Of a stretch of DNA of 64,000 nucleotides, positions 36,325 through 46,573 are shown piece after piece (position 1 is the first letter of the stretch; each line of letters starts with the position of its first letter). Source of the DNA: Pareuzebyella sediminis (GTDB lineage: Bacteria > Bacteroidota > Bacteroidia > Flavobacteriales > Flavobacteriaceae). Position numbers and translations under genes: made by a program. The notes beneath the pieces were generated by a model that made no database searches, had not been told where the DNA came from, and was given only the letters and a program-made list of their open reading frames with translations. The stretch spans positions 620,001-684,000 of the forward strand of contig NZ_VTZS01000003.1 of assembly GCF_008367235.1 (NCBI RefSeq), in the 5' to 3' direction.

Positions 36325-36978
36325 GTGTTAGACAAGAACGGAATAGCAAAACGTATTGCGAAAGAAGTTAAAGATGGTTACTATGTTAATTTGGGTATTG
36401 GTATCCCAACTTTAGTAGCAAACTTTGTTCGCAATGATATCGATGTAGAATTTCAAAGTGAAAATGGGGTTTTGGGAATGGGGCCATTTCCTTTGGAAGG
36501 GGAAGAGGATGCCGATATCATCAATGCAGGAAAACAGACAATCACCACTTTACCCGGGGCCTCCTTTTTCGATTCGGCGACCAGCTTTGGTATGATCCGG
36601 GGCCAACATGTCGATTTGACCATATTGGGAGCGATGGAGGTAGCTGAAAATGGGGATATCGCCAACTGGAAGATTCCCGGTAAAATGGTTAAAGGTATGG
36701 GCGGTGCTATGGATTTGGTAGCCTCCGCCGAGAATATTATTGTAGCCATGATGCATACCAATAGGGCGGGGCACTCTAAATTATTAAAGCGTTGTACCCT
36801 ACCCTTGACCGGGGTGGGCTGCGTCACGAAAATTGTGACCAACTTGGCCGTTTTAGAGGTAACATCAGAAGGTTTTCTGCTCAAAGAAAGAGCTCCCGGC
36901 GTGAGTATCGAAGATATCAAAAAAGCTACTGAGGGTACTATGATCATAACTGGCGATGTACCTGAAATGGTGATATAA
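36325..36978 (+). CDS. scoB: 3-oxoacid CoA-transferase subunit B
   Basis: 217 residues, starting with GTG at 36325 (LDKNGIAKRIAKEV), which is the only start giving the normal N-terminus. The catalytic Glu that forms the CoA thioester lies in QSENGVLGMGP (about residue 50); NLGIGIPTLVANFV and GGAMDLV are further family blocks. Pairs with the subunit encoded directly upstream. No thiolase or 3-hydroxybutyrate dehydrogenase gene is adjacent. Confidence 0.94.
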   Translation: MLDKNGIAKRIAKEVKDGYYVNLGIGIPTLVANFVRNDIDVEFQSENGVLGMGPFPLEGEEDADIINAGKQTITTLPGASFFDSATSFGMIRGQHVDLTILGAMEVAENGDIANWKIPGKMVKGMGGAMDLVASAENIIVAMMHTNRAGHSKLLKRCTLPLTGVGCVTKIVTNLAVLEVTSEGFLLKERAPGVSIEDIKKATEGTMIITGDVPEMVI

Positions 36979-37075: not shown

Positions 37076-37151
37076 TTCACAACATTTTTTGAACACTTCA
37101 CAACAAGAATTTCAATTTTGTGATCTTACACGTTACTTTTATAATGTTATT
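37076..37151 (+). promoter_or_regulatory. Activator-type promoter module, locus 1 (paired TTCACAACA repeats)
   Basis: TTCACAACA at 37076-37084 and again at 37097-37105, a 21 bp period (two helical turns). Exactly 28 bp further is TACTTTTA (37134-37141), a near match to the Bacteroidota -7 element, and 4 bp beyond comes TGTTATT (37145-37151), the likely start region. No -33 TTG is at the right distance, which fits dependence on an activator. Two 9-mers with a 12 bp spacer is the layout bound by LytTR-type response regulators; the regulator itself is not identified. The same arrangement recurs at 46330. Confidence 0.6.
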
Positions 37152-37190
37152 GATTGTAAGTCAACCCGAATCGAATAAAACCTATTTCCT

Positions 37191-37292
37191 ATGGAAGCCC
37201 AAATGAACCAAACCCAAGAAGAAATTCAAGTGTACAAGAATGATTTTTTTAGCGGAATCGTTATGTTGACACGAAAGTTGTTTATGCTATAG
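37191..37292 (+). CDS. Candidate 33-residue small peptide
   Basis: Short frame ATG to TAG encoding an acidic/polar N-terminal half (MEAQMNQTQEEIQVYK) and a hydrophobic-basic C-terminal half (NDFFSGIVMLTRKLFML). No family recognised and no signal peptidase motif. Support comes from context: it sits between a strong promoter-like module (37076-37151) and an intrinsic terminator (37315-37349), and its ATG is 14 bp after an AATCGAAT landmark that is conserved at the related locus near 46426. Could be a secreted or membrane-active peptide, or a leader peptide of a small RNA. Confidence 0.45.
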   Translation: MEAQMNQTQEEIQVYKNDFFSGIVMLTRKLFML

Positions 37293-37314
37293 AATTTTTT
37301 TAAGAATTTAAAAG

Positions 37315-37349
37315 AAAGAGCGATTCTCCCCAAAGGTCGCTCTTTTTTT
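37315..37349 (+). terminator. Intrinsic terminator of the locus 1 small transcript
   Basis: Perfect 9 bp stem AAAGAGCGA (37315-37323) with TCGCTCTTT (37337-37345), 13 nt loop, T run to 37349. It lies 22 bp after the 33-codon frame and before the acetyltransferase start, so it closes an independent ~200 nt transcript. Confidence 0.8.
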
Positions 37350-37384: not shown

Positions 37385-37930
37385 ATGCCGCCAAGACTAC
37401 AAGAATGTACTCTCGATGATTTATTCTTATTGGCGGAAATTGCAAAAGACACTTTTACGAAAGCCTTCGAGCAAGAGAATAATCCAGATGATTTTAACGC
37501 CTATTTAAATACCGCATTTAGCCCAAGTCGACTACGCGCCGAATTGAGTAATATCAATTCTGATTTTTATTTTATCTTGAACGGTTCCGATTTGGTGGGG
37601 TATCTGAAACTTAACGAGAATGAGGCCCAAACCGATATTAAATCAAGCGAGGCTATTGAATTGGAACGCCTTTACATACGACATCTTTTTCAAGGTCTAC
37701 AAATAGGCCATTGGACTTTGAACGAGATAAAAAAAATAGCCCTTCGTAGGCGGAAGAAATTTATATGGTTAGGGGTTTGGGAAAAGAACTTTAGGGCGAT
37801 TGAATTTTATCGACGGCACGGGTTTTCAAAGTTTGGCGTACATCCATACTATGTTGGAAACGATAAGCAAACAGATTGGCTGATGCGCTTTAATGTTCGC
37901 GTTGATGATTGTGCTGATTGTACACATTAA
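37385..37930 (+). CDS. GNAT-family N-acetyltransferase
   Basis: Acetyl-CoA-dependent N-acetyltransferase, 181 residues. The GNAT core shows motif A around LERLYIRHLFQGLQIGHWTL, where the usual Q/RxxGxG/A loop is QGLQIG, and the later ENFRAIEFYRRHGF block typical of motif B. Closest in style to PaiA/YhgE-like polyamine or small-molecule acetyltransferases; substrate not predicted. Its stop is 2 bp from that of the convergent aminotransferase gene. Confidence 0.88.
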   Translation: MPPRLQECTLDDLFLLAEIAKDTFTKAFEQENNPDDFNAYLNTAFSPSRLRAELSNINSDFYFILNGSDLVGYLKLNENEAQTDIKSSEAIELERLYIRHLFQGLQIGHWTLNEIKKIALRRRKKFIWLGVWEKNFRAIEFYRRHGFSKFGVHPYYVGNDKQTDWLMRFNVRVDDCADCTH

Positions 37931-46329: not shown

Positions 46330-46405
46330 TTCACAACAAAGAGGGCAAGGTTCACAACAAAAATTTAAATGATACTGAAAACAAGCGTAGTTTTACCCTG
46401 TTATT
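46330..46405 (+). promoter_or_regulatory. Activator-type promoter module, locus 2 (paired TTCACAACA repeats)
   Basis: Same build as the module at 37076: TTCACAACA at 46330-46338 and 46351-46359 (21 bp period), exactly 28 bp later TAGTTTTA (46388-46395), and 4 bp later TGTTATT (46399-46405). Further on, AATCGAAT (46426-46433) is followed after 14 bp by ATG, as at locus 1, but the next codon is TGA. A 62-codon frame at 46314-46502 runs through the repeats and is considered a by-product of them. No downstream protein gene; transcription would end at 46573. Confidence 0.55.
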
Positions 46406-46573
46406 AAGTGATAGTTTAGACCCCAAATCGAATTACAACTTAACCAAATGTGAGCGAGGTTTTCCCCAAAAATCCGAGCTTGACCTTCATAAGTTAGACT
46501 GAAATTTTCAGAACCAAATTTTACAATTGACCTACTTGTTTACAAAAAAGCCCCTATCAAAGGGGCCTTTTTG
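46406..46573 (+). ncRNA. Candidate small transcript downstream of promoter module 2
   Basis: About 170 nt between the locus 2 promoter module and the terminator at 46541-46573. Its leader resembles that of the 33-codon gene at locus 1, but the ATG at 46448 is directly followed by TGA and no other convincing frame exists (a 15-codon frame from the GTG at 46450 is possible). Either a small RNA or a decayed copy. Prediction from layout only. Confidence 0.3.
46541..46573. terminator. Bidirectional intrinsic terminator
   Basis: GCCCCT/AGGGGC stem flanked by A and T runs (AAAAA left, TTTTT right). It lies 18 bp after the stop of the minus-strand exoprotein gene and serves it; on the plus strand it would end the locus 2 small transcript. 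Confidence 0.8.

Follow-up and report, generated by a model that had tools for sequence, protein, structure and literature searches.

A twin-box promoter, a conserved microprotein gene and candidate regulatory RNAs in Pareuzebyella sediminis and related Flavobacteriaceae

Twin-box promoters and associated features

The window, that is, the whole 64,000-nt stretch of Pareuzebyella sediminis DNA that was analysed, contains a 33-codon gene, here named P1, with its own promoter and intrinsic terminator, and a second copy of the same promoter in front of a putative non-coding RNA, ncRNA A. The features of the two regions are the following:

36325..36978, forward strand: gene that we take to encode a CoA-transferase subunit B-like protein; upstream of P1 in 37 of 39 relatives
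37076..37105, forward strand: twin LytTR-like box TTCACAACA-N12-TTCACAACA (single boxes at 37076-37084 and 37097-37105, period 21)
37134..37141, forward strand: -7 promoter element TACTTTTA (TAnnTTTA), N28 after the second box
37146..37349, forward strand: predicted P1 transcript, ~200 nt, its start placed from the -7 element and its end from the terminator
37164..37195, forward strand: predicted pairing site of sRNA E in the P1 leader (CCCGAATC, AACCTATTT, start codon CTATGG), -29.6 kcal/mol against -15.6 for shuffled leaders
37191..37292, forward strand: P1 gene, MEAQMNQTQEEIQVYKNDFFSGIVMLTRKLFML, 33 codons, TAG at 37290-37292
37311..37349, forward strand: intrinsic terminator of P1, hairpin and T-run, -16.8 kcal/mol
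37385..37930, forward strand: GNAT acetyltransferase gene; downstream of P1 in 28 of 39 relatives
46330..46359, forward strand: second twin box, promoter of ncRNA A
46388..46395, forward strand: -7 element TAGTTTTA of ncRNA A
46400..46573, forward strand: ncRNA A, predicted sponge, with E-complementary sites at 46421-46429, 46437-46445, 46464-46470 and 46530-46537
46545..46573, forward strand: intrinsic terminator of ncRNA A

All the landmarks that an earlier note had described between 37076 and 37349 are present. The -7 element of P1 is followed by TGTTATT and then by AATCGAAT at 37169-37176, from which 14 bp lead to the ATG at 37191. The Bacteroidota -7 consensus is TAnnTTTG at -12 to -5, according to the available part of PMC9723704. 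As far as the accessible sections of the papers go, the usual LytTR site is made of 9-bp repeats with 12-bp spacing (PMC6193735, PMC4847170), and such a site has been defined as two 9-11-nt repeats lying 11-13 bp apart upstream of a promoter (PMC4847170); the box at 37076 falls within this definition, with a 9-12-9 arrangement and the -7 element 28 bp on. The recurrence of every landmark at 46330, also claimed earlier, holds for the promoter and the leader motifs and fails for the 33-codon frame, as the ATG in AAATGTGAGC of this copy is directly followed by TGA and no reading frame was seen in the window copy of ncRNA A. The idea that both window copies encode a peptide was thus rejected, since only the first does.

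Allowing up to three mismatches, exactly two twin boxes were found in the window, compared with 0.03 expected from shuffled sequences. Genome-wide, the pattern of the box by itself (≤3 mismatches) gave 27 sites and its reversed control seven, so that weak box-only sites are partly due to chance, and further analysis was therefore restricted to sites having the full layout. The pattern of box and -7 element at exactly N28, which has 20 fixed positions, gave 19 sites with ≤3 mismatches and none for its reversed control, in line with the further copies that had been anticipated. The strict layout was missed in 16 of the 39 P1 loci of relatives (4-8 mismatches; e.g., Arenibacter and Cellulophaga), in which the second TTCACAACA is usually visible.

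The P1 microprotein gene

P1 was found in 69 of 397 family genomes, these being a sample, with one additional marginal match (G009, partial, E-value 2.8e-4). A profile made from four copies was used on 95 pattern-matched stretches, among which 39 loci were confirmed. These belong to Zobellia, Pseudozobellia, Pricia, Ulvibacterium, Maribacter, Euzebyella, Kriegella, Arenibacter, Cerina, Robiginitalea, Cellulophaga, an Allomuricauda MAG and other Flavobacteriaceae, and two of the records carry different labels (Cytophaga sp. FL35 and 'Bacteroidetes bacterium').

The length of P1 across relatives is 33-36 aa, the frame is intact in all 39 loci, and M1, IQVY, G22, L26 and LFM are invariant in the 40-row alignment. 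A terminator-like hairpin followed by a T-run was recognised by eye past the stop codon in the 39 relatives. The pN/pS ratio is 0.17 for 12 distinct 33-aa forms and 0.20 for 27 distinct 35-aa forms; in the final 17 codons, left unused by the search patterns, it is 0.16, with most of the change in third positions. The comparison with relatives that the earlier note had proposed thus found the 33 codons conserved, with a synonymous bias in their substitution (pN/pS 0.16-0.20), and P1 is, judged from the alignments, a genuine protein-coding gene under purifying selection, its product presumably acting as a protein.

Neither P1 nor P2, a second microprotein described below, matched any family in Pfam or NCBIfam at E≤0.1. 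The AlphaFold model of P1 is one lone helix (pLDDT 82, pTM 0.38), and the C-terminal half is hydrophobic and amphipathic. No transmembrane stretch was found, the highest 19-residue hydropathy being 0.54 in the window copy and ≥1.6 in none of 40 relatives. The suggestion that P1 might be a bacteriocin or a peptide pheromone, drawn from Gram-positive bacteria, was not borne out: the host is a flavobacterium, a double-glycine leader is present in 0 of 40 aligned peptides, the flanking genes are those of the CoA-transferase and the GNAT acetyltransferase, and no export gene was found in the sequence read.

Other genes and RNAs behind the twin box

The DNA behind the boxes, in this genome and in relatives, falls into several kinds, namely P1, P2, ncRNA A and its relative form D, ncRNA B and ordinary genes. 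The members located outside the window are:

G000 C10:807028-807123, reverse strand: P2 gene, 32 codons, MLYDTYGEEYLSFLQELNEILSINELVELDYM; also at L013:1317-1412
G000 C14:138549, C14:141505, C10:704868 and C16:329943: ncRNA B (loci L043-L046)

ncRNA A, aligned from 16 copies, contains the motifs GACCCCAAATC, GAACTTAACC, ACTTAACCTA and ACCTACTT and a terminator, and often occurs in tandem. Its consensus fold comprises only a 6-bp helix and the terminator, with a total of -1.4 kcal/mol. The ncRNA A model R1, which includes the window sequence, has its sole window match at 46397-46492 (59 bits); it matched 36 of 207 genomes, and 16 of 207 at E-value <1e-8 under stricter filters. In Zobellia uliginosa (G001), the R1 matches correspond to ncRNA A only.

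P2 is very acidic (charge -8) and was found in 72 of the 397 genomes, which are the same 69 as for P1 plus G080, G100 and G310. ncRNA B, of ~90 nt, has an invariant 26-27-nt core, TTTTTCATTTTCATATAGTGTTCTCG, followed by a terminator; 15 copies were aligned, leaving out one variant copy in L074. It is present in 70 of the 397 genomes (the same 69 as P1 plus G080), with one control match in all, and in at least 28 of a hand-picked set of 41 genomes it follows the gene of the response regulator (RR) described in the next section at a distance of 148-202 bp (479 bp in one case). By eye, the complement of ncRNA B resembles mRNA starts of the ATGAAA type, and no targets were found for it beyond this likeness. 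Searches of Rfam gave 0 matches at the gathering score for the window, and only sub-threshold, chance-like matches for five loci with E, A and B. With codon conservation in P1 and ncRNA families behind the same promoter, the earlier description of an activator-controlled small peptide or sRNA family outside usual annotation is strongly supported at the sequence level.

The ordinary genes behind boxes encode an ECF-type sigma factor, haem-NO-binding-domain, leucine-rich-repeat and T9SS-tail proteins, and the kinase of the RR. In five genomes (L006, L095, L098, L107, L114), the box in the promoter of the ECF-type sigma gene is a variant, TTCACATCA-N12-TTTGACAACA or TTTTACAACA. The gene with the haem-NO-binding (HNOB) domain stands behind a twin box in L103 (G011:C18:364229), which may be a hint at the signal. 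Additionally, a conserved protein of ~123 aa (MENSSLKGRILxEIExLIA...) is encoded behind twin-box-like sites in four genomes (L100, L092, L111, L015), and the one member tested had no Pfam match.

The response regulator and its co-occurrence with the box

The genome encodes 15 LytTR-domain proteins, including an RR of 249 aa with Rec (PF00072, E 2.8e-20) and LytTR (PF04397, E 6.1e-18) domains. Its gene, behind what is presumably a menaquinone-gene cluster, is followed by a twin-box promoter and then by the gene for a 658-aa histidine kinase (TPR, HisKA_2), and in G001, G018, G026 and G032 boxes were likewise found in the interval separating the RR gene from a similar ORF.

RR orthologues were detected in 81 of the 397 family genomes, 69 of them at ≥82% identity and 12 at 57-78%. 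The former are exactly the same 69 genomes that have P1, and the latter lack it. The twin box (≤2 mismatches) was found in 40 of 40 genomes with the RR (1-10 each) against 0 of 40 without it, with one reversed-control match in total. In a first sample of 60 genomes, it occurred in 7 of 7 genomes with the RR (12 boxes in this genome) versus 2 of 53 others; these two belong to other families and have a single 2-mismatch box each, and one also has a control match. Because the genomes are related, these counts are not independent trials, and the pattern of presence and absence may simply mark one clade. A chance repeat was rejected on the numbers of boxes in the window (2 against 0.03), of full-layout sites in the genome (19 against 0) and of box-bearing genomes (40/40 against 0/40). 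The earlier assignment to the LytTR type is upheld as a prediction, given the 9-12-9 layout, the co-occurrence with the RR in the family and the box between the RR and kinase genes, and the RR is the regulator predicted to bind the twin box.

The predicted sRNA family E

Weaker R1 matches often lie in tandem arrays with the opposite strand sense, and the other strand of these reads as a tandem sRNA family of ~75 nt, here named E, located outside the window. Its members consist of a -7 element, ACCATAGCATAAGTAGGTTAAGTTCATGGTAAGATTTGGGG and a strong terminator. The search for E covered the 32 genomes flagged by model R1, a set to which Zobellia uliginosa (G001) does not belong; 103 copies were found in 30 of the 32 fetched genomes, and none in G068 and G075. 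One 31-nt core is shared by 68 of the 103 copies and a second core by 25. Of the 30 genomes bearing E, 25 have P1, three (G030, G080, G100) have a diverged RR and no P1, and two (G088, G111) are RR-less. The E core was found neither in the window nor in viral contigs (0 matches in each). An array was located in this position:

G000, near C14:381,500-382,400, within L295 (C14:379500-384500): E array of at least 4 copies, flanked by genes that we take to be superoxide-dismutase-like and amidotransferase-like

In 47 mid-array copies of E, conserved bases upstream form a repeat with a 21-bp period, placed 37 bp ahead of the -7 element, an arrangement that the twin box also has.

Predicted pairing of E with leaders and with ncRNA A

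Pairing was calculated with the own-genome E core as query and with RNAduplex, which ignores RNA structure and chaperones; on this basis, 36 of 40 P1 leaders paired with E at p<0.05 (mean z -4.2), the four others being L148, L151, L156 and L161, and the mean P1-leader energy was reached by 0 of 200 shuffled E sequences. The start codon lies wholly inside the pairing in 36 of the 40 leaders, which have CT before the ATG in 31 cases and ATGGA in 39. Among 48 starts of the window (47 mechanical ORFs ≥110 aa and P1), P1 had the strongest pairing by both energy and p, and one other start had p<0.05. No exact E site of ≥7 nt was found before the ATG in the window P1 leader, where the pairing uses G-U pairs. 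A hairpin around the CCCAAA motif was a weak lead: it encloses the motif in 20 of the 31 P1 leaders having it, and does not do so in the window copy. The last codons of P1 (TTATGCTAT, 37282-37290) show complementarity to E as well, at its 5' end, which may be chance or a second contact.

The leaders of P2 paired with E in 3 of 3 cases, ncRNA A in 16 of 16 (p 0.002-0.028) and form D in 3 of 5. The 16 ncRNA A sequences contain 49 exact E sites of ≥8 nt (1-5 each) against 2.0 expected; this match of A to E is partly built in, because it was an antisense resemblance to ncRNA A that led to E, whereas the matches of the P1 start codon and of P2 to E are free of that selection. ncRNA B was discarded as a partner of E, having paired above chance in 0 of 4 copies (p≥0.6 in 4 of 4). 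Among 27 other leaders behind twin-box sites, three had p<0.05 (the ECF sigma gene in 1 of 5 genomes, L062 and L091), and because only these three pair, E is not general to the regulon.

Proposed regulatory circuit

P1 would be a stand-alone gene in a two-component regulon whose TPR/HisKA_2 kinase and Rec-LytTR RR are encoded elsewhere. The activated RR would bind the twin box and switch on P1, P2, its own kinase gene, ncRNA B and the multicopy ncRNA A. E, which is predicted to have two exposed antisense stretches and a start-codon antisense stretch, would pair across the start codon in the P1 and P2 leaders and block their translation, a repression made plausible by the likeness of E to FopS as described in the available part of PMC11697453. 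As ncRNA A has several E-binding sites and no reading frame, it is expected to act as a sponge for E. The predicted circuit would thus run from the kinase to the RR and on to P1, P2, A and B, with E inhibiting P1 and P2, and A inhibiting E. Since one regulator would both make the microprotein mRNA and remove its RNA brake, this would be a coherent feed-forward switch. Given the coding conservation, the shared promoters, the co-occurrence with the RR, the box beside the RR-kinase pair and the complementarity, all of them read from sequence, we consider it probable that the RR drives P1, P2 and A, that E brakes P1 and P2 and that A titrates E. For P1 itself, the main candidate roles are those of a modulator of a two-component system and of a growth-slowing peptide.

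Other explanations have to be weighed against this circuit. P1 with its terminator could be a leader-peptide attenuator of the downstream GNAT gene, which 28 of 39 relatives have ~80-340 bp past P1, the terminator standing in between; this is very unlikely, as P1 and its terminator are kept in the 11 of 39 loci without a GNAT match (L154 being too short to judge), the amino-acid sequence is kept over its full length and P1 has no run of one regulatory codon. P1 as a GNAT leader peptide was accordingly rejected, since it stays where GNAT is gone. It is also improbable that the twin box is bound by a different regulator, for example one of the 14 other LytTR-domain proteins. The 15 LytTR matches of the genome leave room for this, and the cross-genome profiling covered this RR only; against it stand the co-occurrence of box and RR (40/40 against 0/40), the box between the RR and kinase genes, and RR-less genomes that have no boxes although LytTR proteins are presumably common in them.

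The remaining alternatives concern what P1 and E do. TisB/IstR offers the analogy of a stress-induced type I toxin-antitoxin system, in which terms P1 would be a toxic or growth-slowing peptide and E its trans-encoded RNA antitoxin, under stress induction. The short peptide, the hydrophobic amphipathic C-terminal half, the predicted single helix and the predicted pairing of an sRNA at the start codon would all fit; however, this is an unlikely reading, because P1 has no transmembrane stretch (0.54 here, and none of 40 relatives at ≥1.6), keeps one chromosomal neighbourhood and is not found in some genomes where E is present, and the other target, P2, is very acidic (charge -8). A somewhat better case, possible if still doubtful, can be made for P1 as a small protein modulating either the two-component system to which it belongs or another partner, in the manner of MgrB and SafA, with the E/A layer being a minor tuning. 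P1 is predicted to be a single helix and occurs in exactly the genomes having the RR at ≥82% identity, but the clade structure alone could yield the same match, P2 and ncRNA B are distributed nearly alike, and a contact of P1 with the kinase or the RR is purely hypothetical.

The circuit in which E brakes P1 and P2 and A titrates E may be extended. The 21-bp repeats at a box-like distance in mid-array E copies suggest that the brake may be under a second LytTR regulator, in which case two LytTR systems would compete at the RNA level over one microprotein. For the whole reading, of a two-component system driving two conserved microproteins through an RNA-sponge switch extended in this way, we regard the chances as about even.

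Component types of this kind are each known, while their combination and all the families appear to be new, and no description of the system was found in open-licence PMC text. If correct, the interpretation would add an undescribed post-transcriptional switch common to a marine flavobacterial clade (Zobellia, Arenibacter, Cellulophaga, Robiginitalea and others), along with new families of microproteins (two) and of RNAs (three), and would bring RNA-sponge logic and LytTR-controlled regulatory RNAs to the Bacteroidota, where few regulatory RNAs have been characterised. The E core and the P1 leader would also be an easily mutated pair for the study of sRNA repression in mRNAs without Shine-Dalgarno sequences. 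Zobellia and similar genera are amenable to laboratory culture, and P1 is present in the non-pathogenic strains Zobellia uliginosa DSM 2061 and Pseudozobellia thermophila DSM 19858.

Comparison with known systems

TisB/IstR combines a regulated mRNA for a short peptide with an sRNA brake. The predicted arrangement of P1 and E is alike in both respects, and differs in that P1 has no transmembrane stretch.

The LytTR regulons (AgrA, VirR, YpdB and the LytTR Regulatory Systems of Streptococcus mutans) have in common with the present system an RR of the Rec-LytTR type and, as far as the available parts of PMC6193735 and PMC4847170 describe them, direct repeats of 9-mers, spaced by 12 bp, ahead of a promoter and a positive-feedback layout. 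Here, unlike in those regulons, the box sequence is new, the partner is a TPR/HisKA_2 kinase, the binding is predicted, and two microproteins and ncRNAs are among the outputs, the host group being Flavobacteriaceae. Rfp18 of Flavobacterium psychrophilum is a conserved flavobacterial sRNA that can be likened to E, A and B by description only, and it affects metalloprotease mRNAs (PMC9723704, accessible portion). LhrC of Listeria, controlled by LisRK, is a multicopy sRNA with redundant short sites under two-component control; there the acting sRNA itself bears the repeated sites, whereas here it is the multi-site RNA A that looks like a sponge of E (PMC4132741, from the excerpt available).

FopS of Bacteroides thetaiotaomicron can be compared with E. 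In the sections available of PMC11697453, it is a multicopy set of sRNAs, each ~65-70 nt long, which attach to the start-codon region and block translation. The multicopy nature, the similar size and the start-codon pairing in Bacteroidota are shared with E, a likeness drawn by description only. In the same sections, FopS targets susC-like PUL mRNAs and is countered by the protein RbpB, while E is arranged in tandem, has other seeds, and is predicted to target microproteins and to be countered by an RNA sponge.
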